This document shows, in pieces, positions 1 through 17,473 of a stretch of DNA of 64,000 bases. Numbering within the stretch: the first letter of the stretch is position 1; every line of letters starts with the position of its first letter. The DNA comes from Microbacterium sp. BH-3-3-3 (lineage in GTDB: Bacteria > Actinomycetota > Actinomycetes > Actinomycetales > Microbacteriaceae), in the NCBI RefSeq assembly GCF_001792815.1, contig NZ_CP017674.1, forward strand, positions 1,178,001 through 1,242,000, written 5' to 3'. The position numbers and the translations under genes are program-made. Below the pieces are notes generated by a model that had not been told where the DNA came from, searched no databases, and was given only the letters and a program-made list of their open reading frames with translations.

Positions 1-331
1 ATCACGAGGGTTCTAGGCGTGGTGGCGCAGGGATACTCCGCTCTCAAAATCACCTGCCCCTCATCCATTTGGATGAATAGATCCTCCTGAGCGTCTCGGA
101 ACCTGACGAGTCGACCGACGCGCCTCTGCTCCGGACTAGTGTTCGACCAATTCTCCTGTGGGGAGCGGGCGGCGTAGCGAACGCTGGGGCGCGTTCACGA
201 TGATGCCGCCGAACCGGTGTCCGTGGTCGCTCCTCGGTCGCGCACCTGAACGCCGCGTGCAACGCGTCTGCACAGAGAGAGCCGAGCGCGCGTGCGCTCG
301 TGTTCTATGCCCGAAGAACCGAGGAATCTCC

Positions 332-1252
332 ATGACCGATAACACTCCGGCCTACCCCGCAGGCTGGTACGCCGACACCAACGCACTCGGAACCGAGCGC
401 TACTACGACGGCACCGCCTGGACGAACGAAACCCGCCCCGTGCCGATCGGGGCCAGTCCCCTCGCAGAACCTGCCGCCAAGGCACCCTGGTACAAGCGAA
501 AGGCAATCGTCATCCCCGTCAGCGTCCTGGCCGGACTCATCGTCATCGGAAGCATCGGCAGCGCAATGGGTGGAGGAAAGGGTGCCACCACAACAGCCGA
601 CACGAAGGCAGTGGCGGCGGCTCCGGTCGTCGAAGAGGACACGGATGCCGCGATCACCGTTCCCGAGACAACGGGTCTGACCGCTAAGGAAGCGGCCGCG
701 CTGATCGAGAACGCGGGACTTCAAGCGGAATTCTCCGCCGACAAGGGGTTCGTCATCGATCGAGACAACTGGACCGTCCTGAGCACGACGCCCGCTTCCG
801 GGGCAGCCGCCAAGACCGGCGACACCGTCGTGATCAACGTCGAGAAGACGGCTGCCGCTGCGCCCTCGACCGTGCCTGAGGTCGCCGCCCCGTCAGCCCC
901 ACCCGCGGCCGCTGAGCCCGAGAAGCCCGCATTGACGACGGCGCAATCCAGCGCGGTCCGCTCAGCGAAGTCCTACCTGTCCTTCAAGGGCTTCTCGCGT
1001 GCCGGACTCAGCGAGCAGCTGACGAGCGAGTACGGAGAGGGGTTCGCCCCCGAGGACGCCGAGTTCGCCATCGCGCAATTGGAGGCCACCGGCGCCGTCG
1101 ATTGGAACCAGGAGGCCGCAGAGGCAGCCAAGTCGTACCTGGACTTCCAGGGGTTCTCTCGCGATGGTCTGTACGAACAGCTGACCAGCGAATACGGAGA
1201 GGGATTCACCCCCGAGCAGGCGAACTTCGGCCTCGCGGCCGTCGGCCTGTAA
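332..1252 (+). CDS. DUF2510-PASTA-Ltp membrane-anchored surface protein
   Basis: A 306-residue protein. An N-terminal DUF2510 motif (PAGWYAD...RYYDGTAWT, residues 9-31) is followed by one transmembrane segment at about 58-80. A PASTA-like domain spans about 108-172 (starting TVPETTGLTAKEAA), and two tandem Ltp repeats fill about 203-306. Each repeat carries a SAKSYL/AAKSYL...GFSR...EQLTSEYGEGF core. The likely topology is a short cytoplasmic head with the PASTA and Ltp domains outside the cell. PASTA domains usually bind peptidoglycan; Ltp repeats occur on actinobacterial surface proteins and in phage superinfection-exclusion lipoproteins. The frame is open further upstream, but I chose ATG 332 because GAGGA lies just before it and DUF2510 begins at once. 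The role is inferred from domains only. Confidence 0.85.
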   Translation: MTDNTPAYPAGWYADTNALGTERYYDGTAWTNETRPVPIGASPLAEPAAKAPWYKRKAIVIPVSVLAGLIVIGSIGSAMGGGKGATTTADTKAVAAAPVVEEDTDAAITVPETTGLTAKEAAALIENAGLQAEFSADKGFVIDRDNWTVLSTTPASGAAAKTGDTVVINVEKTAAAAPSTVPEVAAPSAPPAAAEPEKPALTTAQSSAVRSAKSYLSFKGFSRAGLSEQLTSEYGEGFAPEDAEFAIAQLEATGAVDWNQEAAEAAKSYLDFQGFSRDGLYEQLTSEYGEGFTPEQANFGLAAVGL

Positions 1253-1258
1253 GTCGTG

Positions 1259-1290
1259 CATGGGGCGGGCATCACGACGCCCGCCCCATG
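1259..1290 (+). terminator. hairpin terminator after the Ltp protein
   Basis: A 12-bp perfect inverted repeat (CATGGGGCGGGC / GCCCGCCCCATG) with an 8-nt loop begins 6 nt after the stop codon. There is no T-run, as is common for terminators in high-GC actinobacteria. Confidence 0.7.
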
Positions 1291-1530
1291 CACCGCGTTC
1301 GCCGCATACGTGCGGCTGGGGGCCGCCTCTCCGTGATCAACCTTGAGCACGCGTGGCTGCTGCGGTCGTCGGCGGTGAGGCCAGAGTGCGCCACTCAGAG
1401 CACAAATCACGATAGCGAGACGCCGTCTCAGACCCACGAGCGCCGAACACCCTCGCGGGCATTCCGCGGCGACGCGGCCACTCTCTCACCGCGTCGATGT
1501 CGACGCCCGGGCCGGCCATCTATGACCCGC

Positions 1531-1860
1531 TTATTGTGGCGAGTCGGGTTTGCGCCGCGCCGCGGCCGAGGCCTCCATTACGCCGCATAGCAAGCCGAGC
1601 GCGCCTCCGATCATCGTTGCAGCGGCAACGACGGGGCGCGCACTCGCGAAGCTCGCGTATCCCGCCGCAGCACCAATCGCGGCGGGCACCATGGCAACCG
1701 CCAAACGCGCCACGGGGTGCTGAACAAACGACAGGGTCATAAGAGAGCGGGTCGTCCCCCATGCGATCAGGCCGAGCGCGGCCCCGATAGAAAACCCGGC
1801 AGGCCCTGCCCACAGCATCAACCCCCAAGGAGCTGTCGCCACCGATACTTCAGGACTCAC
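1531..1860 (-). CDS. small hypothetical membrane protein
   Basis: A 109-residue, strongly hydrophobic protein with three to four predicted membrane segments (for example GFSIGAALGLIAWG, LAVAMVPAAIGAAAGYASFA and TMIGGALGLLCGVM) and a short basic tail. It starts at GTG 1860 without a clear Shine-Dalgarno. It is divergent from the operon that begins at 1926 and shares a 65-bp gap with it. I do not recognise the family. Membrane proteins beside a peptidase operon can be effectors, but nothing here proves a link. Confidence 0.5.
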   Translation of the reverse strand: MSPEVSVATAPWGLMLWAGPAGFSIGAALGLIAWGTTRSLMTLSFVQHPVARLAVAMVPAAIGAAAGYASFASARPVVAAATMIGGALGLLCGVMEASAAARRKPDSPQ

Positions 1861-1925
1861 GATCGCTAAAGCGGCCAGCCTTACGGGAACTGTCGACGTC
1901 GGAGGAGCCGATTACCGTCGAGGAA

Positions 1926-2060
1926 ATGAGCCAGATCCAGGCAGTACTGCGCCGACGTGACGTCGAGCTCGCCTCCCGAGACGCCGACGCGCCGGCCGAA
2001 CTCACCCCGCAAGACGTTGCTGCTGCCCTCGACGAGGTCCGCAACAACAGCGGGTCGTGA
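1926..2060 (+). CDS. short leader ORF of the IrrE operon
   Basis: A 44-residue ORF (starts MSQIQAVLRRRDVELASRD, ends LDEVRNNSGS) whose TGA overlaps the GTG of the next gene (GTGA), which suggests translational coupling. The same frame stays open upstream with protein-like composition (LKRPALRELSTSEEP...) but has no ATG/GTG/TTG there, so the true start is uncertain; it may be truncated or use CTG. It is too short to assign a fold. In IrrE-type pairs the upstream gene is often a DNA-binding repressor; no HTH is visible here. Confidence 0.5.
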   Translation: MSQIQAVLRRRDVELASRDADAPAELTPQDVAAALDEVRNNSGS

Positions 2061-2944
2061 CCGGCGGCGCACTGGACGCGTTCGCACAGCGATGGGGGAC
2101 GTCCACACCAGAGGCTGCGATGGTTGCTGCAGCGGCGCACGCGACGGGTGACTTCGCACGGTTTCTTCCGATAGACCCGGGCGCCGTCGCCAACCGCTTC
2201 GGCGCAACCGTTGCAGTCATGCCCGGGACCCGAGGTGTCGGCGGTGCGCTTGCCGACCATGGCAAGCTGTCCGTGCGCGACGGACGCTGGCACATCCGTG
2301 TCCCCAAAGAGATCAGCCCCGAACGCCGCCGGTTCTCCGTGGCTCACGAGATCGGGCACATTTTGCTGTTCACCGCGGTTGCGGAGTACCCCGCCCTGCT
2401 CCGTGAGCTTCGCAGCGAACAGCTTTTCGGCCGCGTCGAGCGTCTATGCAACATCGGGGCAGCTCACGTGCTGATGCCGACGAATTCCTACACCGCGGCG
2501 TTTGACGAGTTCGCTCCCCTGAACCGAAGCGCTCTCGATGCGCTCGCCACCCGCTTTCACGTCTCCCTGGAGGCGGCTGCCCGGCGCATCACTGAAGTGA
2601 AACCAGAATGGTCCGTCATGTTCTGGTCGCTCTCCGCCACCCACCCCCGAGGTGTCGCGTGGCGCACAGCCAACCAGCAACCACGCGAAGGCCGAGCGTT
2701 CCTGCCCTCCGGGCTGTCCTCCTCCCGACTGCAGCCTGACGTCGTGGCGGAGGCCGCCCGAGAAGGTGAAGCGAATGCAGACAAGGTTCTTGCGGACCTG
2801 CCCGGGGTTGCGAGAATGGACAACGTCGTCGCCTGGCACCTCCCCCGCGGACGCCACGAACTCGTGGATGTCGAGCACGGAAGCGGGGAGCGCCAGAACG
2901 ACCGGGTTTTCGTCTTCTACCGAACCGCCGAGCCACACGCGTAG
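2057..2944 (+). CDS. ImmA/IrrE-family metallopeptidase
   Basis: A 295-residue protein with a zinc-peptidase signature HEIGH at residues 97-101 inside RRFSVAHEIGHILLF, the hallmark of the COG2856 (ImmA/IrrE) family. Characterised members cleave or inactivate a partner repressor in response to DNA damage or phage/ICE signals (ImmA on ImmR, IrrE on DdrO). About 150 residues follow the peptidase core, with no second domain I can name. It starts at GTG 2057 with a 4-nt overlap to the preceding ORF. The deoxyribosyltransferase-like gene follows after 7 nt. It could act as the sensor-protease of this operon; the substrate is unknown. Confidence 0.85.
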   Translation: MTGGALDAFAQRWGTSTPEAAMVAAAAHATGDFARFLPIDPGAVANRFGATVAVMPGTRGVGGALADHGKLSVRDGRWHIRVPKEISPERRRFSVAHEIGHILLFTAVAEYPALLRELRSEQLFGRVERLCNIGAAHVLMPTNSYTAAFDEFAPLNRSALDALATRFHVSLEAAARRITEVKPEWSVMFWSLSATHPRGVAWRTANQQPREGRAFLPSGLSSSRLQPDVVAEAAREGEANADKVLADLPGVARMDNVVAWHLPRGRHELVDVEHGSGERQNDRVFVFYRTAEPHA

Positions 2945-2951
2945 GGGGAAC

Positions 2952-3428
2952 ATGCGCATCTACATTTCCGGGCCACTGCAAGGCTCCACCGACCTCGCTA
3001 CGGCCCGCCGGTTCTACGACGCACTCGCGTTGCTGATCCGCGACGCCGGCCATGAGGCCTACGTGCCTCATCACTCCACCGATCCGGTGGCCGCGGCAGG
3101 CCTCCCAGCACAGGTCGTCTTCGCGACAGACCTCGCCGCTTTGAACTCTGCCGACGCCATCATCGCGCACGTGGGGCTGCCCTCGACGGGTGTCGGCGCC
3201 GAGTTGGCCCTGGCGACCGCCTCAGGCCGACGCGTCCTCGGCATCAAGCGTCCCGGCGAGAAGGGCTCCCGGTTCGCCGAGGGGCTCATCGCCGATGGCG
3301 GTGGCCAGGTCCGCACCTTCGCGGACGAGCAGGAGCTCCGCGAGGCCGTCCGTAACTGGCTGAGGATGCCAGCGGCGTGGTTTGGGCGCCCGGAAAGCAT
3401 CGAGCCACACCGGAAGGTCGTCGCTTGA
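2952..3428 (+). CDS. nucleoside 2-deoxyribosyltransferase-like protein
   Basis: A 158-residue protein with the nucleoside deoxyribosyltransferase layout. It opens with MRIYISGPLQG, has DLAALNSADAIIAHVG in the middle, and STGVGAELALA carries the glutamate expected as the catalytic nucleophile. ATG 2952 follows GGGGGAAC. Family members move deoxyribose between bases or hydrolyse deoxynucleotides; related folds also act as nucleotide sensors or effectors in conflict systems. The gene ends in a 4-nt overlap (TTGA) with the next one. The tight packing with kinase-like and glycosylase-like genes suggests a shared nucleotide or modified-base substrate, which is inference. Confidence 0.75.
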   Translation: MRIYISGPLQGSTDLATARRFYDALALLIRDAGHEAYVPHHSTDPVAAAGLPAQVVFATDLAALNSADAIIAHVGLPSTGVGAELALATASGRRVLGIKRPGEKGSRFAEGLIADGGGQVRTFADEQELREAVRNWLRMPAAWFGRPESIEPHRKVVA

Positions 3429-4063
3429 GCGCCCGGTATGTCGTCGTCACGGGTGCTGTGGGGGCCGGTGCGACGACCGTATCGAACGTGATCCTGCGTC
3501 GGTGGGACGCGGATCCTCTGCTGGAAGACCAGATCGAGACCAACAACCCGTTCTTCAAGGACGCGCAGACCGACCCCGAACGATGGGCGTTCAGCAGTCA
3601 GGCGCACTTCCTGGCCGCCTCCGTTGAGCGGCATGCGCGACTGCGCGCGCTGCTGGAGACCACGGAGACCGACTTCGTCGTCGAGGACCGCACGCCCTTC
3701 GAACACCATGGCGCCTACGTGCTCTCCGCATACCGGCTCGGGCACCTCTCAGAGCGTGAGTACGAGCTGCTGACGAAGCTGGCCCGCGAAATCGAGAAGC
3801 AGTACCTGATCCCAGATTTGCTCGTTTACCGCGAGATGACCGATGAGCAGCTGGTCGAACGCGTCCTGACGCGTGGTCGGGACGGGGAGTCTGCCGACCA
3901 CGGGCGCCTCTCCTCCATCCACGAGGCGTTCGAGGCGTTCGCAGACAAGTGGGACCGCTCACCCCTCACGCGGGTGCCCGCCGACCTGGATGTCCTGGAC
4001 CCCGACGGGGAAGAAACCCTGGTGCACTCGCTGAGCACGGTTCTCGGTTCCCCGAAGCGATGA
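3425..4063 (+). CDS. deoxynucleoside-kinase-like P-loop protein lacking the Walker A lysine
   Basis: A 212-residue protein starting at TTG 3425, overlapping the previous stop. The N-terminus VVTGAVGAGATTVSN aligns with the dNK/thymidylate-kinase P-loop (G-x4-G-K-S/T), but the invariant lysine is alanine (GGT GCG ACG). Other dNK-like elements are present: DRTPFEHHGAYV resembles the (E/D)RS motif, and LLVYREMTDEQLVERVLTRGR resembles the LID arginine segment. It may bind nucleotide without phosphorylating it, or be a decayed kinase. It ends in an ATGA overlap with the next gene, so it is kept in translational coupling, which argues against simple decay. Confidence 0.65.
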   Translation: MSARYVVVTGAVGAGATTVSNVILRRWDADPLLEDQIETNNPFFKDAQTDPERWAFSSQAHFLAASVERHARLRALLETTETDFVVEDRTPFEHHGAYVLSAYRLGHLSEREYELLTKLAREIEKQYLIPDLLVYREMTDEQLVERVLTRGRDGESADHGRLSSIHEAFEAFADKWDRSPLTRVPADLDVLDPDGEETLVHSLSTVLGSPKR

Positions 4064-4683
4064 CCAACCCATTGCAGGACGCGGTCATGGCTCTGCCATC
4101 TACGCACACCGCGACGAACTTCTGGCTCGATGACAGCGACCTCAGCGGTGACTTCCCCACCACCGCATCCGAGCGCCGCGCACAACTCGACACGCATCTG
4201 AACCGGGTGCGCGGTGGCGGGATCGTCCTTGTGGGCGAAGCTGCCGGGTGGCGCGGCGCACGCCAGTCGGGGGTCGCATTCACGTCCGCCGTGACCGTCG
4301 GCCTGCCCGGCACACGAGAGCCCACGGCAACCACCGTGCACCGCGCCCTGGCCGAACTGGGACTTAAAGACAGCGCGCTGCTGTGGAATGCGTTTCCGCT
4401 GCACCCGCACGAGGTGCGGCGCCCCGGCACGAACCGCACACCCACCCCGGCAGAGCTCCGCTCCGGGCGTGACGCACTCGCGCTGGCCGTCGACAACCGA
4501 CGCGTCGTCTGCGTGGGAAAGAAGGCCGCAGAGAGCGTCCGTGAGCTCCTGGGGGTACCCACCCCTGCTGCAGCCGATGTCCGCGCGTCGGACAGGGCCG
4601 TGGCGATTCGCCATCCCGCGAACGGGGGAACCCCTCACTTCTTCTTGCACATGCGGACGCTCGCAACGCGCTGGGGCCTCTGA
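4060..4683 (+). CDS. uracil-DNA-glycosylase-superfamily protein
   Basis: A 207-residue protein with UDG-superfamily features: VLVGEAAGWRGARQSG (cf. the GEAPG motif of family 4/5-type enzymes), SALLWNAFPLHPHE in the middle, and AIRHPANGGTPHFF near the C-terminus in place of the HPSP/HPS loop. The normal role is excision of deaminated or modified bases; some superfamily members act against phage DNA carrying modified bases (for example Brig1). The cysteine ligands of the 4Fe-4S families are not evident. It is last in the operon, with an ATGA overlap at its start. Substrate not assignable. Confidence 0.7.
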   Translation: MTNPLQDAVMALPSTHTATNFWLDDSDLSGDFPTTASERRAQLDTHLNRVRGGGIVLVGEAAGWRGARQSGVAFTSAVTVGLPGTREPTATTVHRALAELGLKDSALLWNAFPLHPHEVRRPGTNRTPTPAELRSGRDALALAVDNRRVVCVGKKAAESVRELLGVPTPAAADVRASDRAVAIRHPANGGTPHFFLHMRTLATRWGL

Positions 4684-4992
4684 GCGGCGCAATGAGGTTC
4701 AGAGGCGCGAATGTCAGCCTCTTCATCACACAGACCGTGCCGACTTCGCTGCGGTCATCGAGAAGGCGAAAGCCGCCATCCAGACGCACAGCAGATTTGC
4801 TCGGGCGCTGCCTGACACTGACCCCGAGGCCTTCGAACTGCGCGCCCCGCGCGACGAGGCTCGCACCGTCGCGCTTAACTTGATTGCGCCCCGAGCGTTG
4901 CGCTTGGACGCGCGGGTGGAACCGCGAACTAACGCACCCACCTCGGATCCTCCCCCGCCAAACGCGTTGACGGGGGATCAGCGGACCTAGAC
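4684..4992. other. gap between convergent cassettes
   Basis: About 310 bases separate the tail-to-tail cassettes. No complete gene is supported. On the + strand at about 4690-4990 one frame is open and protein-like (for example ADFAAVIEKAKAAIQTHSRF, then EAFELRAPRDEA) but has no usable start codon, so it may be the remnant of a lost gene. No clear terminator hairpin was seen. Confidence 0.4.
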
Positions 4993-7335
4993 CTAGACCT
5001 CGATTTCGACGTCGACGTCGACGTCGACGTCGACCGAGGTCTCCACTTGGATGGGCAGAGCGGTCAGGACGGGGTACTGCACTTCTGCGAGGGCGTACAG
5101 CGGAACGTCCGCGTGAGCGCTGATCGTTACGATGAGGCTGAACTCGATTTCGTCGGTGCCTGTCGTCAACCGTCCGTTTTCGCGGGTGACATGGCTGATG
5201 TCGATGGTCGGCTTGTGAAGGCTTCGGCCCTGCTTCGTGAACTGCCAACGGGAGATCGATTCCCACTTGCCGTGGTCACGAAGCGCTGTCTCGGGGGCGA
5301 AATCCGACGGGGCAGAGAAGCTCTCGGGATACCGGGAAGGCCTGTAGCCTTCGGCGAGCAAGGCTGCGATCTCCTCCGCTTGCGTTTCGATATTGCGGGT
5401 TTTCGTGGTCCTTCCGTTTGCGAACGTGTGCTTCAACGCGTGGGGGCGGAAGGTCGTCTCCAGACCGGCGTTCGTGTAATCGCCTGCCTCCGCGCTGTCT
5501 GTGCCCGTGGTGAACGCCAAGGTCCACCGCACGTCGAAGTTGCCGGTAGTCAATCCCGTCGGATGCGGAAGAGCGAAGCTGCGCACCTCGTCGCGAGCGA
5601 TGCTGCCCTGGTAGATGGCGGTCACCTGCCCGGGGCCGCACTGGAGGATCTTGTTCACGTCGGTCACGATTCGCCCGTACCCCACGGCCAGGACGTCGTG
5701 ACCGGGCAGTCTGGTTGCGGAGTGCACAATCAGTGCCCGCAGCGTGGGCGCGTCAGCTCGGGGGCCGAGCTCGCGGGTGAGTTCCGCGGCCAGGTGCGTC
5801 ACGAGTGGCGCTGCATAGCTCGTGCCGTGCCCGTCGAGGAGGAGCTGCCCGTCGGCCCGCAAGCGTGGGAACCGGGGGCTGATGACGTCACCGCCGAACG
5901 CGACGACAGCCGGTTGCACCCGAGAACCCGGGCGCCCGGGGCCGCGGCCCGAGTAGTCGGTCGCGTCCCACCCGGCGTCGGTGGGGACGAAAGCTCCGAC
6001 GCAGAGGCCGTTCACCATGTCACCGGGGACCTGCACCCTGTGAAGGTTCGCAGCGCGGTCACGGTGACCGTCGTTACCGGCCGCGGTAATGAACAGGGTG
6101 CCCGTCTCCCGGGCCAGCTTGTCGAGCACTGCGGTCCACCGGTGCGGTTCGCGGTCGTCGATGGGCACGCGCGGGCCGAGGCTAAGGTTGACCAGCGCGG
6201 GTTTGTCGCGTTCCACGACGGTGCGGATCTGGCGCAACAGCCACGGGTACTCGGACGAGTCGGTGTCGGGCCCCTCAACCACCTGGTAGTGCTTTACGCT
6301 CGCCGCCGCCGGTGGGAGGGGCTCGCCGGGAGTGAGCTGCCCGAACAGGACACACGCTGTTACCGCGGAACCGTGGGCGAGGGGGCCAGGTGTGAAGCCC
6401 AGACCGGTGAGGTCGACGTAAACCACATGGTCGTGGAACACCCCGGAATCTGTCTGCACCCCACCATCGAAGACCACTACCTCGGGAAGCCCAGGCACGG
6501 GGGCCGCGGCCGGGTCCAGCACTGCGTCGGCGATGTCGGCCCCAGGTGCGGTCGCAAGCTCGATGCGAGGCGTCGGAGAAAGAGAACGGAGAGGGTTAAA
6601 GGCGGTCACGTCATCGACGGCGGACGCCGGGAGATCGAGCGCCACGAATGTCAGGCCGTCGACCACGTCGTTGAAATCGGCGTGGACGCGCCCACCGTTC
6701 GCTTCTACCAGCTTTACGAACTTCTCGAGCGTCGTCGGCGACGCTCCCGAACGCTCCATCAGCGTGGACGTGTCCGGGTCCGGGTGCAGCACCGCCTCGA
6801 ACGGGAGCAGCTCTTTCAGGCCGTCGTCGTCCGGCTCGCCCACGTACGGGGCTGCGACGGTGATGCGGGTGAACTGCCGCACCTCTTCGAGCGCCTTGTT
6901 GCTGCGCGCACCCGTCGTCGTCCCGTCGAGCAGTTCGACCATCTCGTCGATACCGCCAGCGTCAACGGAGAACAAGTACGACTTCGTGACCGACTCAGTG
7001 TCGCCCTTTGTCTGGCTCCGGTGCACACCGTCCTGCACGATCCGGGACCCGAGCGGCTTGAATTTTAGCCTGCTGACGAGGCTGGCAGGGAAGTAGGAGA
7101 TCGCGAGGTAGTTCGCCCACACTTCCGCTTCGATGACGACCCGGTTCGCGCGCAGCTCGGGCGGGATCTGCGCGATCCGCCGCTGCAGCTCACCGAGCTG
7201 AGGCTCAAGCAGGTCTCGTGCCTGCTCGAGCGATTGCGGGTGGTACTTTTCGCCCCCACGGCTCACCCTGTCGATAGTCTGCCCAAGGTCCTCGCCGTTG
7301 ACGAAGATCCTGCCGCCCCCTGTGGCATCAGCCAT
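4993..7335 (-). CDS. S8 subtilase of an AAA-subtilase (IetAS-type) cassette
   Basis: A 780-residue protein. A roughly 270-residue N-terminal region precedes a subtilisin domain with all catalytic elements: Asp290 (VVVFDGGV), His321 (LAHGSAVTA), oxyanion Asn421 (FITAAGND) and Ser506 (DGHGTSYAAP). A roughly 200-residue C-terminal region follows. No signal peptide is visible, so it is probably cytoplasmic. It ends in an alternating valine/acidic tail (VDVDVDVDVEIEV) encoded by a GACGTC hexamer tract. The gene starts 21 nt after the AAA ATPase. ATPase-subtilase pairs (IetA/IetS) are known from plasmid incompatibility/toxin work and are listed as phage-defence systems, with the subtilase as effector. 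Confidence 0.85.
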   Translation of the reverse strand: MADATGGGRIFVNGEDLGQTIDRVSRGGEKYHPQSLEQARDLLEPQLGELQRRIAQIPPELRANRVVIEAEVWANYLAISYFPASLVSRLKFKPLGSRIVQDGVHRSQTKGDTESVTKSYLFSVDAGGIDEMVELLDGTTTGARSNKALEEVRQFTRITVAAPYVGEPDDDGLKELLPFEAVLHPDPDTSTLMERSGASPTTLEKFVKLVEANGGRVHADFNDVVDGLTFVALDLPASAVDDVTAFNPLRSLSPTPRIELATAPGADIADAVLDPAAAPVPGLPEVVVFDGGVQTDSGVFHDHVVYVDLTGLGFTPGPLAHGSAVTACVLFGQLTPGEPLPPAAASVKHYQVVEGPDTDSSEYPWLLRQIRTVVERDKPALVNLSLGPRVPIDDREPHRWTAVLDKLARETGTLFITAAGNDGHRDRAANLHRVQVPGDMVNGLCVGAFVPTDAGWDATDYSGRGPGRPGSRVQPAVVAFGGDVISPRFPRLRADGQLLLDGHGTSYAAPLVTHLAAELTRELGPRADAPTLRALIVHSATRLPGHDVLAVGYGRIVTDVNKILQCGPGQVTAIYQGSIARDEVRSFALPHPTGLTTGNFDVRWTLAFTTGTDSAEAGDYTNAGLETTFRPHALKHTFANGRTTKTRNIETQAEEIAALLAEGYRPSRYPESFSAPSDFAPETALRDHGKWESISRWQFTKQGRSLHKPTIDISHVTRENGRLTTGTDEIEFSLIVTISAHADVPLYALAEVQYPVLTALPIQVETSVDVDVDVDVEIEV
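5007..5034 (-). repeat. GACGTC hexamer microsatellite in the subtilase 3' end
   Basis: About 4.7 tandem copies of CGACGT encode the (Val-Asp)n tail of the subtilase. A shorter CTAGAC repeat follows at the stop codon. Slippage would change tail length by two residues per unit without shifting frame. Confidence 0.8.
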
Positions 7336-7356
7336 TATTTCCCCCTGGTATATCGA

Positions 7357-8496
7357 TTAGTTGTCGGATTTCGCGCGTCTGAGGTCGCTGCTGATGGTCG
7401 GATGCGAGACACCAAGCCATTCCGCGATGCGGCGGTTGGACCACTTCGCGTGCTTCGATGCGAATGCGGCCAGCGCGGTGCGGTGGGGCACCGAGCCTGT
7501 GATGTAAGCGCGCGCCGCGTCGCGAGCGCCGTCGAGAAGCTCCCCGGGAACGTTGATCTCCCCGCCTCCGCCGTCGAGCACCGCACGCCGCAGTGAGCGT
7601 GCGACCCAGTTCTGGAGGTCCGCGTGAGACCAGCCATCGGTCACGAGTGCCAGCAGTTCGCTCTGAGCGGCCCACGCGGGGGTGTTCGCCAGCGGGGCGC
7701 TCGCGCGTAGGAGCTGCAGCCGCTCGACCTCGGTGGGCAGCTCGAACTGGACGGTCGTATCGAACCGACGGGTCACGGCAAGGTCGAGCAGCTGGACGTG
7801 GTTGGTTGCGGCGATGAGCAAGCCGCCCGGAGGCCAACGGTCCAATTGCTGCAGGATTACGTTGACGAGCCGGCGGACCTCGCCCACATCGGAACTGTCG
7901 CTGCGGCTTTTCGCGAGAGCGTCGAACTCGTCGAAGAACACCACACACGGCTGTGAGGCGGCGAGGTTGAGCACTTCCTGCAAGTTCTGGCCGGTTCGAC
8001 CCATGAGGCTGGAGATGAGGGATGCGAGGTTCACTGTGATGAGCGGCAACCGCAACTCGGAGGCGACATAGTCCGCGGTAATGGTCTTGCCCACACCTGG
8101 GGGACCGGTAAAGAGGACGGCGCGGGAAGGCATCAGGCCGTAGCGGGCGAGAGGCTCTGGGTCGGTGTGCTCCGCGATGAGGAGGCGAATGGTGTGCGCG
8201 AGCCTCTCCGACAGGACAGGGGCGGGAACGCCCGAGGGCTGACGCACCCAACTGGAATCCGGCGCCTCGATGGCGGGCGCCGATCGCAGCGGGCTGTCCG
8301 CCGGCGCGGGGGAACGGTCCAGAAGATCCAGGAGCGCCTGCTTCAGAGCCTGGGGGTGGCGTGCGTCATCGGGCACCCGCCTGACCACACGTCGACCGAG
8401 CAGACGCACGCCTTCGAGATCACCGGAGAGCGCAACGCGCGTAACGTCGAGGAGCGCTTGCTCGAGTTGACCCAGGGCCTTGTCTGACACATCCAA
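7357..8496 (-). CDS. AAA ATPase with C-terminal helix-turn-helix (IetA-like)
   Basis: A 379-residue protein. The N-terminal ~100 residues are helical. The AAA core has Walker A GPPGVGKT (131-138), Walker B VVFFDEFD (185-192), a sensor-1 ATN and the arginine-rich VTRRFD. The C-terminus WSNRRIAEWLGVSHPTISSD is a clear helix-turn-helix, suggesting DNA binding or self-regulation. Start TTG 8496 is preceded by AGGGTGG; GTG 8490 is an alternative. It lies between the Trypco1-like gene and the subtilase. The expected role is an ATP-driven regulator that restrains or loads the subtilase; IetA acts as the antidote in the IetAS pair. Confidence 0.85.
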   Translation of the reverse strand: MDVSDKALGQLEQALLDVTRVALSGDLEGVRLLGRRVVRRVPDDARHPQALKQALLDLLDRSPAPADSPLRSAPAIEAPDSSWVRQPSGVPAPVLSERLAHTIRLLIAEHTDPEPLARYGLMPSRAVLFTGPPGVGKTITADYVASELRLPLITVNLASLISSLMGRTGQNLQEVLNLAASQPCVVFFDEFDALAKSRSDSSDVGEVRRLVNVILQQLDRWPPGGLLIAATNHVQLLDLAVTRRFDTTVQFELPTEVERLQLLRASAPLANTPAWAAQSELLALVTDGWSHADLQNWVARSLRRAVLDGGGGEINVPGELLDGARDAARAYITGSVPHRTALAAFASKHAKWSNRRIAEWLGVSHPTISSDLRRAKSDN

Positions 8497-8497
8497 A

Positions 8498-8581
8498 ATT
8501 TACCACCCTGTGGCATCCACGGCTACAGGCCGAAGTGATGCGAGTGGTAAATGGCGGGAACTCGGTGCCCGGATTTACCAC
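8498..8581 (-). promoter_or_regulatory. three copies of ATTTACCAC/GTGGTAAAT in the AAA gene promoter gap
   Basis: Exact 9-mers occur at 8498-8506 and 8573-8581 (ATTTACCAC on +) and at 8544-8552 (GTGGTAAAT on +). The latter two form a perfect 9-bp inverted pair with a 20-bp spacer. The copy nearest the gene overlaps its ribosome-binding region. They are likely operators, possibly for the HTH of the adjacent ATPase. Confidence 0.6.
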
Positions 8582-8594
8582 GTCGTGTCGCTTC

Positions 8595-8930
8595 TCAGGA
8601 GTCGATCTGATCCTGCTTATTCCACAGGGCGCGGACGGTGAACGTAGCCTCGCTTGTCGCTTTCGTCACCAGCGGGATGCTCGTCTCGCCACCAAGGGAG
8701 ATGCCGAAGGTGAGCTCGAGCTCATCGGGGGATGCCGCGGTGACACCGTCCCGCATGGCCATCATGACGTCATTGCACAGTTTGGCGACGGTCTCACCGA
8801 CCTCCCGGACGTGATGAGCCGTTGTGGAGGCGAACTCACTGACGCCCCGCAGGGGTGACTCGGCCGGGCGTGTCACTTCGATGGTGAACAGCGTGCGACC
8901 GTTCTCATCCTGGATGAGATGCTCAGACAT
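8595..8930 (-). CDS. Trypco1-domain (CU044_2847-like) small protein
   Basis: A 111-residue protein resembling the CU044_2847/trypsin-co-occurring domain 1 family. It has an N-terminal beta segment (GRTLFTIEVTR), a helix with VGETVAKLCNDVMMAM, then the family-typical PDELELTFGISLGGETSIP and EATFTVRALW strands. Start ATG 8930 is preceded by AGGAGGATCCC. Family members sit beside trypsin-like or other peptidases in predicted conflict systems and are thought to be adaptors linking effector to sensor. Here it is the first gene of the AAA-subtilase cassette, 98 bp ahead of the ATPase. The family call rests on recall of the pattern, not a search. Confidence 0.65.
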   Translation of the reverse strand: MSEHLIQDENGRTLFTIEVTRPAESPLRGVSEFASTTAHHVREVGETVAKLCNDVMMAMRDGVTAASPDELELTFGISLGGETSIPLVTKATSEATFTVRALWNKQDQIDS

Positions 8931-8999
8931 GGGATCCTCCTCGAACGACCGTAGCGGCTGGACAACGTCGCGCGCGGATCGCGCGCACGTCTGAGCATC
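8918..8999. repeat. 11-bp inverted repeat around the Trypco1 start
   Basis: GATGCTCAGAC at 8918-8928 (next to the start codon) and GTCTGAGCATC at 8989-8999 are perfect inverted copies about 60 bp apart. They enclose the promoter region of the cassette. Confidence 0.5.
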
Positions 9000-9011
9000 C
9001 CGGTTCCGGCA

Positions 9012-9560
9012 CTAGGGAGTGTCTGACATGTTTTCGTCCAAGGCGAGGGTCGCGTGAACGAGGATTGCGGCGCGGTAAACGATGGCGTGCTTGTCGTATC
9101 GGGTCGCGAGTCCTCGCCATCGCTTGCTGTAGCAGAACCGTCACTCGATTACGTTCCGGTTCCGGTCGTCGTCGGTGTCGAGTTCGACGGGTCGGCCGCC
9201 TCGTGAGCCGCGGCGTTTGCGGTGGCCTTGCTGGTCTCGTGGTTCCGGGACGACGGCCTTGATCCCGCGACCACGCAAATGCGCCCGGATCGCGAGAGAC
9301 GAGTAGGCCTTGTCACCTCGGATCGCATCCGGTCGGGTGCGAAGTCGCCCGCTCGGCAGCGTCTCGCGTAACTGTTCCAGCAGCAGCACGAGTATCGGTG
9401 AATTGCCGGCCGGACCAGGCGTGATGACGCCCACCAGCGTGGCCGAGGAGGCCGCTGATCGCTGCGCCTTTCGAAGGAGTCGAAACCTCCTTGCCGCGCC
9501 CGCGGTTCAGCTCCATCAGGTGTGTTGCGCTTCGCTGGGCCAAGTTGCGAGCTCAGCCGA
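9012..9560 (-). pseudogene. decayed IS5-family transposase
   Basis: Read on the minus strand, the C-terminal half of an IS5-type DDE transposase is recognisable: RPDAIRGDKAYSSLAIRAHL, then RGIKAVVPEP, then RKRRGSRGGRPVELD, then RNVIE, and after an in-frame TGA, SKRWRGLATRYDKHA. The upstream part lies in another frame, with a shift near 9430. The N-terminal half is missing or unrecognisable. At least one nonsense change and one frameshift make it non-functional. Confidence 0.8.
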
Positions 9561-9616
9561 GACCCCCGCACATCAAGCCCCCGCCGCCGACGACCGATCA
9601 TATGTCAGACGTGTGC
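9015..9616. mobile_element. remnant insertion sequence (IS5 family)
   Basis: The transposase remnant is flanked by short inverted ends: GTCTGACAT at 9021-9029 and ATGTCAGAC at 9602-9610. At about 600 bp it is shorter than a complete IS5-group element, consistent with internal deletion. It marks the right edge of the accessory island, just before the nitrate genes. Confidence 0.65.
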
Positions 9617-9821
9617 CATGAGCTCCACCACGTCGCTCTGACTGACCCCATGTAACGCCCACGTAAACTCCCCCTCTCCCACCCTCTCCGCCCGGGTGAG
9701 CCAACCGTTACCTCCCCGCCCCCAGCGGCGCGGTCCCGGGAAACCCCTCCTCCCTACGCTGACGGCACGCCCCACCCATGCGGGGCGCTGCACCTCCCCG
9801 CATCGTCCACCGGAGGACCCC

Positions 9822-11216
9822 GTGACCGTCACCGACCCGCGCCCCGAAGCGGCCACCGCGCCGCCCGCAACGCCCGAGGCAGCAGCACAAGAACTCACGC
9901 ACCGCCCCGGCCGCTGGATCGACAACTGGAACCCCGAGAACCCCGAGCAGTGGAACAGCGTCGGCAAGGCCATCGCCGCCCGCAACCTGCGGTGGTCGAT
10001 CTTCGCCGAGTTCCTGGGCTTCGTGGTCTGGCAGCTGTGGTCGGTCGTGGTCGTCTCTCTCCCGGCGGCGGGCTTCCAGCTGTCGACGGGTGAGATCTTC
10101 TGGCTCATCTCGATGCCGAGCCTGGTGGGCGCGACGCTGCGCATCCCCTACACGTTCATGGTTCCGCGCTTCGGCGGTCGCAATTGGACGATCGTCTCGG
10201 CCGCCCTGCTGCTCATCCCCAGCATCGGCCTGGCCATCGCGGTGTCGAACCCCGCAACTCCGTTCGGCGTGCTTCTGCTCATCGCCGCCCTCGCCGGCTT
10301 CGGCGGCGGCAACTTTGCCAGCTCGATGTCGAACATCACGTTCTTCTACCCGGCCGCGCAGAAGGGGTACGCTCTCGGACTCAACGCCGCGGGCGGCAAC
10401 CTCGGCGCCTCGGTCGCGCAGTTCGTCGTGCCGATCGTCATCACCATCGGCGCCGCGGCCACCCTCAATCTCCCCCTCGCGGGCCTCATCTGGGTGCCGC
10501 TCATCGTCGTGGCGATGGTCGGTGCGTACTTCCGCATGGACAACCTCAGCGCCGCGAAGGCCGACGTCGCGGCATCGCTCGCCGCCCTGAAAGAGCCGCA
10601 CCTCTGGATCCTCGCGACCCTCTACATCGGCACCTTCGGCTCGTTCATCGGCTTCACGGGTGTCTTCCCGAAGCTCCTCGCCGACACCTTCCCCGACTTC
10701 AAGGGCATCGCGATCGGCACGGCCACCGTCACCCTCGCCTTCCTCGGTGCCCTGGTCGGCTCCCTCGCCCGCCCCTACGGCGGCAAGCTGGCCGACCGCT
10801 TCGGCGGAACCGTCATCACGATCGGCGCCTTCACGGTGATGGGTCTCGGCATCCTGAGTGTGATCCTCACCCTGCCGATGCAGAACTTCGCCGTGTTCCT
10901 GCTCTGCTTCCTGGTGCTGTTCGCCGCCGCCGGCATGGGCAACGGCTCGACGTACCGCATGATCCCGACGATCTTCGCCCTGCGCTCGAACAACGGCATC
11001 GGCGCTCAGCGCAAGGCCGCGGCGGCCCTCGGCCTCATCTCGGCGATCGGCGCGTACGGCGGCTTCTTCATCCCGCAGCTGCTCGGCTTCTCGAAGACGA
11101 CGTTCGGCTCGTACACCCCGGCCCTCGGCTGGTTCGTCGGCGCCTACGTGGTCTTCCTCGCCCTCACCGCCGGCGTCTACCTGCGCATGTCGAAGCGCTC
11201 CGGCGTGCGGATCTGA
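9822..11216 (+). CDS. narK: nitrate/nitrite MFS transporter (NarK/NasA type)
   Basis: A 464-residue major-facilitator protein with about 12 membrane segments. The nitrate-porter glycine-rich signatures are present: ALAGFGGGNFASSMSNITFF in the first half and LFAAAGMGNGSTYRMIP in the second, plus ALGLNAAGGNLG. It imports nitrate, or exchanges nitrate for nitrite, at the cell membrane. GTG 9822 was chosen because CGGAGGA lies 4 nt upstream and the N-terminus becomes a short soluble tail; longer frames upstream have low-quality sequence. The reductase gene begins 6 nt after its stop, so the two are co-transcribed. Confidence 0.92.
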   Translation: MTVTDPRPEAATAPPATPEAAAQELTHRPGRWIDNWNPENPEQWNSVGKAIAARNLRWSIFAEFLGFVVWQLWSVVVVSLPAAGFQLSTGEIFWLISMPSLVGATLRIPYTFMVPRFGGRNWTIVSAALLLIPSIGLAIAVSNPATPFGVLLLIAALAGFGGGNFASSMSNITFFYPAAQKGYALGLNAAGGNLGASVAQFVVPIVITIGAAATLNLPLAGLIWVPLIVVAMVGAYFRMDNLSAAKADVAASLAALKEPHLWILATLYIGTFGSFIGFTGVFPKLLADTFPDFKGIAIGTATVTLAFLGALVGSLARPYGGKLADRFGGTVITIGAFTVMGLGILSVILTLPMQNFAVFLLCFLVLFAAAGMGNGSTYRMIPTIFALRSNNGIGAQRKAAAALGLISAIGAYGGFFIPQLLGFSKTTFGSYTPALGWFVGAYVVFLALTAGVYLRMSKRSGVRI

Positions 11217-11222
11217 CAGCCC

Positions 11223-13409
11223 ATGAGCTCCGCCGACACCCACTGCCCCTACTGCGCGCTGCAATGCGCGATGACCGTGCGCCACGACGGCACCACCACG
11301 GTCACCGGCCGCGACTTCCCCACCAACCGGGGAGGACTCTGCGCCAAGGGCTGGACGTCGGCGGAGCTCCTGGCATCCCCGCACAGACTCCGGATGCCAC
11401 TGACCCGGCGCTCCGACGGCACCCTCGCCGAGACCACCTGGGACGAGGCTCTGGATGCCGTCGCGGCGGCGTTCCGAGAGACGAAAGCGAACCACGGCGC
11501 CGACGCCAACGCCATCTTCGGCGGCGGCGGACTCACCAACGAGAAGGCGTACCAGCTGGGCAAGTTCGCCCGCGTCGCCCTCGGCACCTCGCGCATCGAC
11601 TACAACGGCCGCTTCTGCATGTCGTCGGCGGCCGCCGCCGCCAATCGAGCGTTCGGCATGGACCGCGGCCTTCCGTTCCCGGTGACCGACCTCGACGACG
11701 CCGAGACGATCCTGCTGCTCGGCTCCAACGTCGCCGCGACCATGCCGCCGTTCCTCGCGCACCTCGCCGGAGCCCGCGCCGCCGGCGGCCTCATCGTCGT
11801 CGACCCGCGCCGCTCAGCCACGGCGCGCCTCACCGAAGACGGCGCCGGCACCCACCTGCAGGCCGCCCCCGGTACCGACCTTCCGCTCCTCCTCGGCCTC
11901 ACCCACATCGCCCTCGCCGAGGGGCTCGCCGACCGGGCCTATATAGAGGAGCGCACGTCGGGGTTCGACACGGTCCGACGCAGCGTCGCGCAGTGGTGGC
12001 CGGAGCGGACTTCTGCGACGACCGGCGTCCCGGTCGCCGACCTGAGAGCGACCGCCCGCCGCCTCGCCGCGGGACGCGCGTACATCCTCACCGGACGCGG
12101 CGTCGAACAGCACGTCGACGGCACCGCCACCGCGACCGCCGCGATCAACCTCGCCCTCGTGCTCGGCCTCGTCGGCCGCGAGGGCTCGGGCTACGGCACC
12201 CTCACCGGCCAGGGCAACGGCCAGGGCGGACGCGAGCACGGCCAGAAGGCCGACCAACTGCCCGGCTACCGCTCCATCCGCGACCCCGAAGCCCGCCGGC
12301 ACGTCGCCGGGGTCTGGGGCGTCGATCCCGACACGCTTCCGGATGCCGGAATCCCTGCCACCGCGCTGCTCGCAGAGCTCGGCGGTCCGGTGAAGACGCT
12401 GCTGGTCGCGGGCTCCAACGTCGTCGTCTCGGCCCCCGACGTCGAGGCCGTTCGCGCGAACCTCACCGCCCTCGACACCCTGATCGTCTGCGACTTCTTC
12501 CTCTCCGAGACCGCGGAGCTCGCCGACATCGTGCTGCCCGTGCTGCAGTGGGCCGAGGAGGAGGGCACGATGACCTCTCTCGAGGGCCGGGTCATCCGCC
12601 GTCGCCAGGCGCTGCCCGGGCCCGACGGCGCCCGCAGCGAGCTGTGGATCATGTCCGAGATCGCGCGGCGCCTGGGCGCGGCATCCACTTGGTCGACCGA
12701 TCCGGCCGAGGTGTTCGACGAACTCGCCCGCGCCTCGGAGGGCGGTATCGCCGACTACTCGGGCCTCTCGCACGCGCTGCTCGACACCGGCGTCGAGGCG
12801 TACTGGCCGTACCGCTCCGAGAGCACCCCGCGACCCTTCACCGAACGCTTCGCCCACGCCGACGGCCGCGCGCGCCTCGTGCCGGTGTCCGCTACTCCCC
12901 CGGCGCCCACCGACCGCGGAGGCGAGCTGACCCTCGTCACCGGCCGCTACCTGCAGCAATACCAGTCGGGCACGCAGACCCGACGCGTCGCCGAGCTGAA
13001 CGGCGCCCGCCCCGAGGCGCGGCTCGAAATCCATCCGGCGACGGCTTCCCGCCTCGGCATCCGCGAGAATGCGCTCGTCGCCGTGTCGAACGAGCGCGGC
13101 ACCGTGCGGGCGCGGGCGACGGTCACCACCGACATCCGCCACGACACGGTCTTCCTGCCGTTCCACTACGCGGGAGACGAGTGCGCCAACCGCCTCACCG
13201 AGGCCATCGTCGACCCGACCTCGGCCATGCCCGAGTTCAAACGCACGCGGGTGCGGGTGGCTCCGGATGCCGCCGCCCCCGGCGCCCCCACCACGACCGG
13301 TGCCCTGACGACCGACGCCCGGGCCGTTTCGCCCCACGTCATCGAGCGCCCCGGCGTTCTGGTGGCGGGCCACTCCGATCACCGCCCCCAGGAGGAGATG
13401 CATGTCTGA
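11223..13409 (+). CDS. assimilatory nitrate reductase, molybdopterin catalytic subunit
   Basis: A 728-residue molybdopterin oxidoreductase. The N-terminal [4Fe-4S] motif is complete (Cys8, Cys11, Cys15, Cys40 in CPYCALQC...GLCAKG). Typical Mo-bis-MGD domains follow (YNGRFCMSSAAAA, GQGNGQGGREHGQKADQLPG) and a C-terminal molybdopterin dinucleotide-binding domain (GRYLQQYQSGTQTRR). The length and lack of a signal peptide fit cytoplasmic NasA/NasC-type enzymes rather than periplasmic NapA. The C-terminal BFD [2Fe-2S] domain seen in some NasA proteins is absent; it is carried instead by the next gene, which overlaps this one by 8 nt. Reaction: nitrate to nitrite. Confidence 0.92.
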   Translation: MSSADTHCPYCALQCAMTVRHDGTTTVTGRDFPTNRGGLCAKGWTSAELLASPHRLRMPLTRRSDGTLAETTWDEALDAVAAAFRETKANHGADANAIFGGGGLTNEKAYQLGKFARVALGTSRIDYNGRFCMSSAAAAANRAFGMDRGLPFPVTDLDDAETILLLGSNVAATMPPFLAHLAGARAAGGLIVVDPRRSATARLTEDGAGTHLQAAPGTDLPLLLGLTHIALAEGLADRAYIEERTSGFDTVRRSVAQWWPERTSATTGVPVADLRATARRLAAGRAYILTGRGVEQHVDGTATATAAINLALVLGLVGREGSGYGTLTGQGNGQGGREHGQKADQLPGYRSIRDPEARRHVAGVWGVDPDTLPDAGIPATALLAELGGPVKTLLVAGSNVVVSAPDVEAVRANLTALDTLIVCDFFLSETAELADIVLPVLQWAEEEGTMTSLEGRVIRRRQALPGPDGARSELWIMSEIARRLGAASTWSTDPAEVFDELARASEGGIADYSGLSHALLDTGVEAYWPYRSESTPRPFTERFAHADGRARLVPVSATPPAPTDRGGELTLVTGRYLQQYQSGTQTRRVAELNGARPEARLEIHPATASRLGIRENALVAVSNERGTVRARATVTTDIRHDTVFLPFHYAGDECANRLTEAIVDPTSAMPEFKRTRVRVAPDAAAPGAPTTTGALTTDARAVSPHVIERPGVLVAGHSDHRPQEEMHV

Positions 13410-15715: not shown

Positions 15716-15796
15716 GGCGCCGCACTCCTCCTGCGTGGGCACCGGCGAGGCCGCGGTGTCTCGCGTGCAGCGCCGGTGTGCGCGGCGCGCGCGACC

Positions 15797-17284
15797 TCAG
15801 CCCACCGCACCCCGCACGTCGAGATCCGCCGACGCCGCACCCTCGAGCCGCGTGCCGTCCGGCGCGAAGCGCGAGCCGTCGACGGGGCTGTCCCACGACC
15901 GTTCGGCGTCGTTCCAGGTGAACGGAGCCGGGGCGACGACCGCGCGGGTGCGCCCCTCGACGGTCGACACCGACGCCGTGCGAAGGCCCCGGCGCGCCAC
16001 GACACCGGCCCCTTCGGCGGGGCGCTTCGCCGGGGCGGGGACGGCCGAGGTCAGCGCCCCCGCCACCACGCCGACCCGCCGGCTCGCCTCGCCGATTCCC
16101 CGACCGAGGTCGGCGGGCACCGTCATGCGCGTGCCGATCGTGCGCATCCAGTGCGGCCGATCGCCGCGCGAGACACCGCGGATCTCGTCGCTCAACCGCA
16201 TCGCCGCGGCGGGGGCGTTCGTGAGGCCCCATCCCGCGTAGCCGGTGGCGAAACGCAGGCGGCCGAGGCCGCGCGGCATCCCCCCGACGAACGGCACGAG
16301 GTTGTGCGACTGGTAATCCTGGCCCGACCAGCGGGCGATCTCGACCCCGACCGGCAGGGTGCGCCGAGCCCAGGCGGCCAGCTCCTCGGCGAGCGCGACC
16401 TCCGACCTCGCCGAGCCGACCGGATGCCGGGCCCCGGTGACGATGAGCGCGGAACGCCCGAGCGACGACGGTGCCGCCACGACGCTGCGCCCGTCGACGC
16501 CGACCTCGCTCCACATGCCGCCGGGGGCCGCGGCATCCCCCTCCAGCTCGAAGGCGATCGCCCACGAGCGCAGCGCCCGCGTCTTGAGGTCGTACAACCC
16601 GCGGCGGGTGATGGGGGTGCCGGTGGCGAGCACGACGGTGTCGCCGAGGAGCGGGCCCTGGGCGGTGTCGACGCGTCCGGCGGGGAGCGCGTGCACGTCG
16701 GTGACGCGCGACCCGGTGTGCAGAGTCGCCCCGGCGTCGACGGCCGCGCGGGCCAGCGAATCGACGAGCTGCACGGGGTCGAGGGCGAGCTGGTCGTCGA
16801 GGGCGAGGGCGCGCACGGGGGTGCGCCCGCCGAGCTCGTCGGGGGCGTCCTCGCGCACGTCGAGGCCCGCCTCGCGCGCGGCGTCGCGGACGGCGTCGAG
16901 CGCGGTGTCGGTGGCGAGACCGCGGCCGAAGGTGAACGCCGTGCGCCGGTCGGCTGCGGCGCCCACGCGCTCGGCGAGCCACTCCTGTCCGGCGCGGTTC
17001 GACTCGACGTAGGCGCGCACGAGGCTCGCGGGGTGGTGCTGGCGCAGGGTCGCAAGCGTCGTGCCCTGCAGCAGCGACGCCATTCCGACCGACGCCCCGG
17101 TCGCGCCCCCGCCCACGTCGCCGGAGTCCACCACGGCGACGTCGACGCCGGCTTCCGCGAGCAGCACGGCGGTGGAGAGGCCCGTGATCCCGGCGCCGAC
17201 GACGATCACGTCGTGGTGCGTCCCGGGCTCGATCGAGGTCGTGTCGGCGGGCGTGCGGTCTCGGGTCCACAGCGGGGAGGTCAT
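15797..17284 (-). CDS. DadA-like FAD oxidoreductase with degenerate Rieske domain
   Basis: A 495-residue protein. The FAD-binding N-terminus is DVIVVGAGITGLSTAVLLAEAG, with a glycine/D-amino-acid-oxidase fold and the C-terminal FAD contact RLRFATGYAGWGLTNAPAAAM. The last ~60 residues follow the usual C-terminal Rieske domain of this family (FTWNDAERSWDSPVDGSRF...DGTRLEGAA). However, the ligands are gone: the expected CTHLGC stretch is VAPAPF and the CPCHGSRF stretch is SPVDGSRF. The oxidase half looks intact. Start ATG 17284 follows a reasonable spacing; the frame continues upstream in poor sequence. Substrate unknown, probably an amine or amino acid. Confidence 0.85.
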   Translation of the reverse strand: MTSPLWTRDRTPADTTSIEPGTHHDVIVVGAGITGLSTAVLLAEAGVDVAVVDSGDVGGGATGASVGMASLLQGTTLATLRQHHPASLVRAYVESNRAGQEWLAERVGAAADRRTAFTFGRGLATDTALDAVRDAAREAGLDVREDAPDELGGRTPVRALALDDQLALDPVQLVDSLARAAVDAGATLHTGSRVTDVHALPAGRVDTAQGPLLGDTVVLATGTPITRRGLYDLKTRALRSWAIAFELEGDAAAPGGMWSEVGVDGRSVVAAPSSLGRSALIVTGARHPVGSARSEVALAEELAAWARRTLPVGVEIARWSGQDYQSHNLVPFVGGMPRGLGRLRFATGYAGWGLTNAPAAAMRLSDEIRGVSRGDRPHWMRTIGTRMTVPADLGRGIGEASRRVGVVAGALTSAVPAPAKRPAEGAGVVARRGLRTASVSTVEGRTRAVVAPAPFTWNDAERSWDSPVDGSRFAPDGTRLEGAASADLDVRGAVG

Positions 17285-17473
17285 GGTCCCATCGAACTCT
17301 CGGTGACGGCCTCCGCGCAGCGGGTTGCCGACGCCGGTCCCGTCGTCTACGTGGGAGGGTCCACGAAGGCTGTGATCGCGCTGAGTGCGGCCCCTAGGAT
17401 GAAGCTCGTCGGCTCCCTGAGCCACCGCCGAGCTGACCAGTCGACGGCGTCACCGACCCTGGGAGTCGTTCGC

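Follow-up and report, generated by a model that had tools for sequence, protein, structure and literature searches.

An IrrE-linked operon of nucleotide-enzyme-like and DNA glycosylase genes in Microbacterium, a candidate base-directed antiviral module

We analyzed a stretch of 64,000 nucleotides (hereafter, the window; C1:1178001-1242000) from the 3.51-Mb genome of Microbacterium sp. BH-3-3-3, near the start of which lies a compact operon combining a peptidase gene with genes related to nucleotide metabolism and DNA repair. In its complete form, the operon consists, in this order, of a thymidylate synthase (TS)-like gene and genes for an IrrE/CapP-like peptidase, a DNPH1-like deoxynucleoside monophosphate N-hydrolase, a deoxynucleoside kinase (dNK)-like protein, and a glycosylase of the uracil-DNA glycosylase (UDG) superfamily. 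Most of the TS-like gene is gone from the window copy, and the remaining 4 genes lie in open frames on the plus strand: an IrrE/ImmA-type metallopeptidase with a HEIGH motif (2057-2944, 295 aa), a predicted nucleoside 5'-monophosphate N-hydrolase of the nucleoside deoxyribosyltransferase (NDT) fold (2952-3428, 158 aa), a dNK-fold protein with a Lys-to-Ala replacement in Walker A (3425-4063, 212 aa), and a DNA glycosylase of the UDG superfamily that contains one cysteine (4060-4683, 207 aa). The 4-nt overlaps at 2057-2060, 3425-3428, and 4060-4063 and the single 7-nt gap at 2945-2951 were re-read in the sequence and are as an earlier note on this DNA had described them. The domain labels of that note also held, all 4 products scoring above the curated cut-offs in a Pfam scan, with the qualifications that the NDT-like protein carries the residues of a DNPH1/MilB-type N-hydrolase and that the kinase-like protein lacks the Walker-A Lys.

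The earlier note counted 5 open reading frames (ORFs) on this strand; 4 of them (2057-4683) stand as genes, whereas the first, 1926-2060 (44 aa), has no Pfam match and is the in-frame tail of the TS-like gene rather than a gene of its own. An intact TS-like gene directly precedes the peptidase gene in two relatives from the same genus set as the window, L010 (Microbacterium sp. H83, also G697; 435 aa) and L037 (G770; 437 aa). In a tblastn search, residues 387-434 of the L010 protein aligned in frame to window positions 1911-2054 (50% identity, E 2e-6), the alignment beginning upstream of the ATG at 1926, and a whole-genome search placed the match at 1179896-1180054, that is, window 1896-2054 (45%), with homology clear from 1911 and weaker from 1896. 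The remnant, annotated at 1869-2060 (plus strand), thus comprises the 3' end of the gene without its 5' part. The rest of the L010 protein gave nothing above chance in the window or in the 20 kb upstream, and the sole other TS-like match in the genome (E ≤ 0.001) is the canonical ThyA at C1:746420. We also considered a small regulator or antitoxin encoded by 1926-2060, a candidate ruled out by its identity with the gene tail; its RNA folding is unremarkable (z 0.25).

The order and overlaps of the operon are more than chance, recurring in L010 and L037. An NDT profile matched 5 of 366 genomes of the genus, 3 strongly, and these 3 (the window genome, L010, and L037) are the carriers of the operon, the window copy being the one without an intact TS-like gene; around the weak matches, 18 kb read in G781 held only a 34% IrrE stretch and 1 chance-level UDG match, and 3.1 kb in G039 held nothing. 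All 3 copies have 4-nt overlaps at the TS/IrrE, NDT/dNK, and dNK/UDG junctions (6001-6004, 7366-7369, and 8001-8004 in L010, whose intact operon spans 4697-8624; 10331-10334, 11711-11714, and 12346-12349 in L037), and the only gap, between the peptidase and NDT genes, measures 7, 16, and 19 nt in the window, L010, and L037, respectively. Identities of the window proteins to those of L010 and L037 are 58% and 62% for the peptidase, 70% and 70% for the NDT-fold protein, 62% and 68% for the dNK-like protein, and 56% and 55% for the UDG. The co-location that the earlier note had proposed to look for is present in other genomes, in each case next to a pair of genes matching PADLOC defense models (see below).

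Protein searches collected 182 UDG, 32 dNK, and 62 NDT relatives. When the sizes of longest contigs are compared, 22 of the 32 dNK clusters (own included) coincide in size with an NDT or UDG cluster; with contigs shorter than 4 kb set aside the figure is 20 of 24, compared with 0.16 for jittered sizes. The matching drew on 100 UDG rows out of the 120 listed and represented each cluster by its longest contig only, so these counts are likely underestimates. Within the family, dNK was found in 1 of 398 sampled genomes, the window's own. The UDG is wider spread (4 of 198 relatives including its own, the other 3 weak) and occurs without other operon genes in L007, L008, and L009, whereas the match in L011 covers residues 1-122 only, again with the other operon genes absent. 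At class level, the NDT search gave 6 matches in 394 genomes besides its own, at E 3e-20 or weaker; the best 3, L065-L067, are large actinobacterial genomes that carry a different cassette of TS-like, NDT-like, and HIT-like genes, named by eye as are those that follow. The cassette additionally includes dCTP-deaminase-like and nucleotidyltransferase-like genes in L065 and L066 and lies near integrase-like and replication-initiator-like genes in L065 and L067.

The earlier note had allowed that the block could belong to a phage or prophage nucleotide-metabolism region, and this did not hold up. Neither UDG nor NDT had a match at E 1e-5 among 50,697 phage records, dNK matched 5 of these records at no more than 30% identity, and IMG/VR scans, run with the UDG as single sequence and as alignment and with alignments of NDT and dNK, yielded no relative that could be confirmed; a phage origin of the entire block was rejected on these grounds, the TS-like gene being its one phage-like member. 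Plasmid spread of the operon was likewise rejected, with no plasmid record for NDT and 20 for dNK, none covering 80% of the query.

Two members of the operon look like working N-glycosidases, judged by their intact N-glycosidase residues. The product of 2952-3428 (Pfam Nuc_deoxyrib_tr, 34.4 bits, E 2.7e-8) is predicted to be a monophosphate N-hydrolase of the DNPH1/MilB type with an intact active site: its profile matched DNPH1/5-hmdUMP N-hydrolase (E 6e-10) and MilB (E 6e-7) among PDB sequences, and D60, S78, E84, and S106, read by alignment to DNPH1 as the catalytic Asp and Glu and the phosphate-binding Ser from both subunits, are invariant in all 34 aligned rows. The other is the product of 4060-4683 (Pfam UDG, 34.9 bits), whose fold is a tie between SMUG1 and family 4; its profile found no match among PDB sequences. 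Family 4 enzymes have 4 cysteines that hold an Fe-S cluster, whereas the window protein has 1 and its relatives have 0 to 3 across 32 rows, and with 15.9 bits against a cut-off of 125.3 it also falls short of the family 4 model TIGR00758. Asn110 is invariant, at the presumed place where Brig1 has a Glu and related enzymes often carry Asn (PMC11078745).

The TS-like and dNK-like proteins, in turn, look to have lost their hallmark catalytic residue and kept other nucleotide-site residues. For the dNK-like protein (Pfam dNK, 70.0 bits, cut-off 27), the AlphaFold2 model has a pLDDT of 94.4 and 8puu as top fold match (TM-score 0.83). The Walker-A Lys is replaced by Ala16 in 26 of 28 rows, the two exceptions with Lys being the outgroups P0151 and P0152. 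As a control, all 18 further loci found with the dNK profile keep the Lys; they come from an order-level search, which matched 15 of 396 genomes besides its own, with the Lys present in all 15.

The TS-like proteins of the relatives match PF00303 with 63.6 and 59.8 bits (cut-off 24.3), and MilA is their nearest solved structure (E 5e-33, compared with only about 1e-11 for TS). They keep the nucleophile Cys at the position of MilA C155. The catalytic Glu (E58 in EcTS, E60 in T4dCH, E68 in MilA) is replaced by Arg in L010, L037, and the mycobacteriophages MontyDev and Papyrus, whereas the remaining 14 of the 18 sequences in the alignment have Glu. MilA residues Glu68, Lys133, Ala176, and Asp186 correspond to Arg, Arg, Ser, and Asn, and the residue alignment points to a pocket of the uracil type. 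From this combination of residue loss and nucleotide-site retention, both proteins most likely serve to sense nucleotides or act as decoys and not to synthesize or phosphorylate them.

Several other arrangements of TS-like genes came to light. The mycobacteriophage "thymidylate synthase" with the Glu-to-Arg change lies one gene after a DnaE-like polymerase (L068, 7911-8915; L092, 1411-2412). Six of 10 TS-bearing plasmid stretches, from 3 phyla (L070, 5935-8957; L071, L072, L073, L074, and L079), carry a cassette of a TS-like gene, a following gene, and an ImmA/IrrE peptidase in opposite orientation; the following gene has an aGPT-Pplase3/ADDT domain in all 4 loci scanned (L070, L071, L073, and L074), and the peptidase is annotated ImmA/IrrE in 5 of the 6, with a hypothetical protein at that place in L072. 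On plasmids of Priestia (L077, 5509-6981) and Streptomyces (L076, 5905-7415), an NDT gene accompanies a TS-like gene carrying the Lys, Ala, and Asp of MilA, as in nucleoside-antibiotic pathways.

The peptidase encoded by 2057-2944 has a Peptidase_M78/IrrE domain (54.2 bits, E 1.6e-14) and matches the PADLOC capP model (E 6.8e-23; 2.2e-23 for its L010 counterpart). IrrE-type peptidases are of the type that releases repressors. The capP match likens it to the peptidase-repressor pairs CapP/CapH and PprI(IrrE)/DdrO, whose helix-turn-helix (HTH) repressor was not recognized directly beside the operon among the neighbors scanned; regulators of the GntR-FCD and AraC types lie farther from the operon.

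Each operon copy adjoins a PADLOC defense pair, IetAS-like in two cases (with different IetS models) and PDC-M65AB in one. In the window, an IetS-like subtilase (4993-7335, minus strand; PADLOC IetS E 5.4e-35) and an IetA-like AAA+ ATPase (7357-8496, minus strand; PADLOC IetA E 1.1e-69) follow the operon, and beside them lies a gene for a small Trypco1/CU044_2847 protein (8595-8930, minus strand; Pfam Trypco1 E 1.9e-13; NCBIfam NF041216, 56.1 bits, cut-off 23). In L010, genes matching IetA and IetS face each other ahead of the operon with 2 small ORFs between them, and in L037, PDC-M65A/B follow the operon. A blastn comparison of 36 kb of the window's chromosome with stretches of G007 and G058 delimits a slot at 1-9646: the sequence of both relatives resumes at 9646/9647, ahead of a major facilitator superfamily gene at 9696, and to the left, shared sequence stops about 80 bp short of the window start in G058 and about 3.1 kb short of it in G007. 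Genes called inside the slot have lower third-position GC. The slot of G058 holds PDC-M11A/B and a WYL protein; with its content differing between relatives, we regard the slot as variable, with known or candidate defense genes in 2 of the 3 genomes compared. Elsewhere, L009 (20-9951) has a lone UDG relative between Wadjet genes (matches to JetA, JetC, and JetD) and a gene whose IrrE-HTH product matches PD-Lambda-2_B, and a 1,176-aa protein with a subtilase domain (Peptidase_S8) is encoded at 15776-19306 of the window, outside the island.

Co-location in other genomes, the adjoining defense pairs, and the variable slot lend weight to the proposal of the earlier note that this is a defense module directed at nucleotides or modified bases, with the antiviral role itself staying a prediction. 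As the leading reading, to which we give a probability of roughly 45%, the operon would be a peptidase-linked antiviral module in which 2 N-glycosidases remove one base, probably of the 5-substituted deoxyuridine type, from both the nucleotide pool and DNA, accompanied by 2 nucleotide-binding sensors or decoys. The module would be switched on by the IrrE/CapP-like peptidase in response to infection or DNA stress; the DNPH1-like enzyme would cleave a pyrimidine deoxynucleotide that carries a modification, with 5-hydroxymethyl-dUMP or a different 5-substituted dUMP as the likeliest candidate, to base and deoxyribose-5-phosphate before its incorporation; and the UDG-family enzyme would cut the same base out of phage DNA, leaving abasic sites, with the TS-like and dNK-like proteins serving as nucleotide sensors or decoys. 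A bolder form appears doubtful to us: a new kind of IrrE-coupled antiviral module whose 2 N-glycosidases would hit a single modified base at two levels, nucleotide pool and DNA, and in which the catalytically disarmed, phage-related TS-like protein and the dNK-like protein without Walker-A Lys would sense or decoy phage nucleotide metabolism.

A number of observations weigh against the antiviral module. Two of its 5 members look inactive, which could also mean another chemistry, and loss of the TS-like gene suggests that it is dispensable in the window or that the system there is decaying. The substrate is deduced from relatives, and MilB Arg23, which reads the hydroxymethyl group (PMC4081090), appears to be replaced by Gln10 (32 of 34 rows; equivalence judged from the motif only). 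No HTH (Xre-type) repressor was recognized directly beside the operon among the neighbors scanned, some small ORFs lying outside the scan. As for the context, the window IetA and IetS fall below the NCBIfam equivalog cut-offs (IteA, 202.2 bits against 510; IteS, 106.9 against 900); the adjacency in 3 of 3 loci, counted without a random-island control, concerns islands, which are often rich in such genes; and 5 proteins scanned in the G007 slot gave no PADLOC match. The lone UDG relatives of L007 and L008 lie in no recognized defense setting: 4 neighbors scanned in L007 gave no PADLOC match, and 1 of the 2 scanned in L008 matched the PADLOC "desaturase" model (E 1e-7).

One alternative, which we judge unlikely, is a salvage or repair cassette carried on mobile islands, with no antiviral role and coincidental neighbors. 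Peptidase aside, the Pfam families are metabolic or for repair, the L008 UDG relative sits among ordinary-looking genes, and distant UDG relatives occur on large plasmids; such a cassette fits poorly with the rare and patchy distribution (dNK in 1 of 398 sampled genomes of the family, the operon in 3 of 366 genomes of the genus), with the defense or integrative-element regulator type of the peptidase, and with defense pairs adjoining all 3 copies. It is more unlikely that the module acts by nucleotide starvation, the triggered N-hydrolase destroying precursors of the dUMP/dTMP type to stop phage DNA synthesis and the UDG clearing the resulting uracil: the DNPH1-type active site and the uracil-type pocket of the TS-like partner agree with it, and a UDG would suit a raised dUTP/dTTP ratio, but kinase- and synthase-like members without their hallmark catalytic residues fit poorly, and DNPH1 is described as a pool sanitizer, not a starvation enzyme. 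Self-poisoning, with the TS-like protein making a modified dUMP, the dNK-like protein passing it on, the UDG shredding DNA that carries it, and the N-hydrolase acting as a safety valve, would parallel the human hmdU/DNPH1/SMUG1 axis, agree with MilA as the nearest structure, and explain the TS-like gene as the one lost from a window copy that keeps the safe half, but is improbable because the lost residues (Glu68 to Arg; Walker-A Lys to Ala) predict no product from either enzyme.

The antiviral module reading finds partial counterparts among known systems. Phage defense by DNA glycosylases is established for Brig1 (PMC11078745), with homologues mainly in Actinobacteria, and for Brig3-BapA (PMC13160076). 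These share with our operon the defense-island setting and the excision of bases from phage DNA, predicted here, but comprise 1 or 2 genes directed at (glucosyl-)5-hydroxymethylcytosine, compared with 5 genes here that include a nucleotide N-hydrolase and 2 altered nucleotide enzymes. MilA and MilB of mildiomycin biosynthesis likewise pair a TS-superfamily protein with an NDT-fold monophosphate N-hydrolase; 4 MilA residues are changed here, and no antibiotic genes were recognized among the neighbors scanned. Human DNPH1 and SMUG1, acting on 5-hydroxymethyl-dU, similarly combine a nucleotide N-hydrolase with a DNA glycosylase, of the SMUG1 fold there and tied between SMUG1 and family 4 here, but form a cellular sanitation pathway without a peptidase or an altered TS or kinase. 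Finally, DefensePredictor (PMC13092281) lists systems with TS, dNMP kinase, 5-hmdU DNA kinase, and NMAD domains, TS and hydroxymethyluracil-kinase domains occurring in systems that protect Escherichia coli and UDG in a legend of predicted systems, a likeness at the level of domain names. Glycosylase defense and validated TS-domain systems are thus already known; the earlier note could match the present gene combination to no named system, and it was not found in print in searches of the open-licence PMC literature.

Defense by base excision has been described in systems of one or two genes, and this operon, if the antiviral module reading is true, would extend base excision to the precursor pool. 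It would also offer a concrete example, open to testing, of nucleotide enzymes taken into immune service, for which intact copies of the operon exist in sequenced Microbacterium-type strains.

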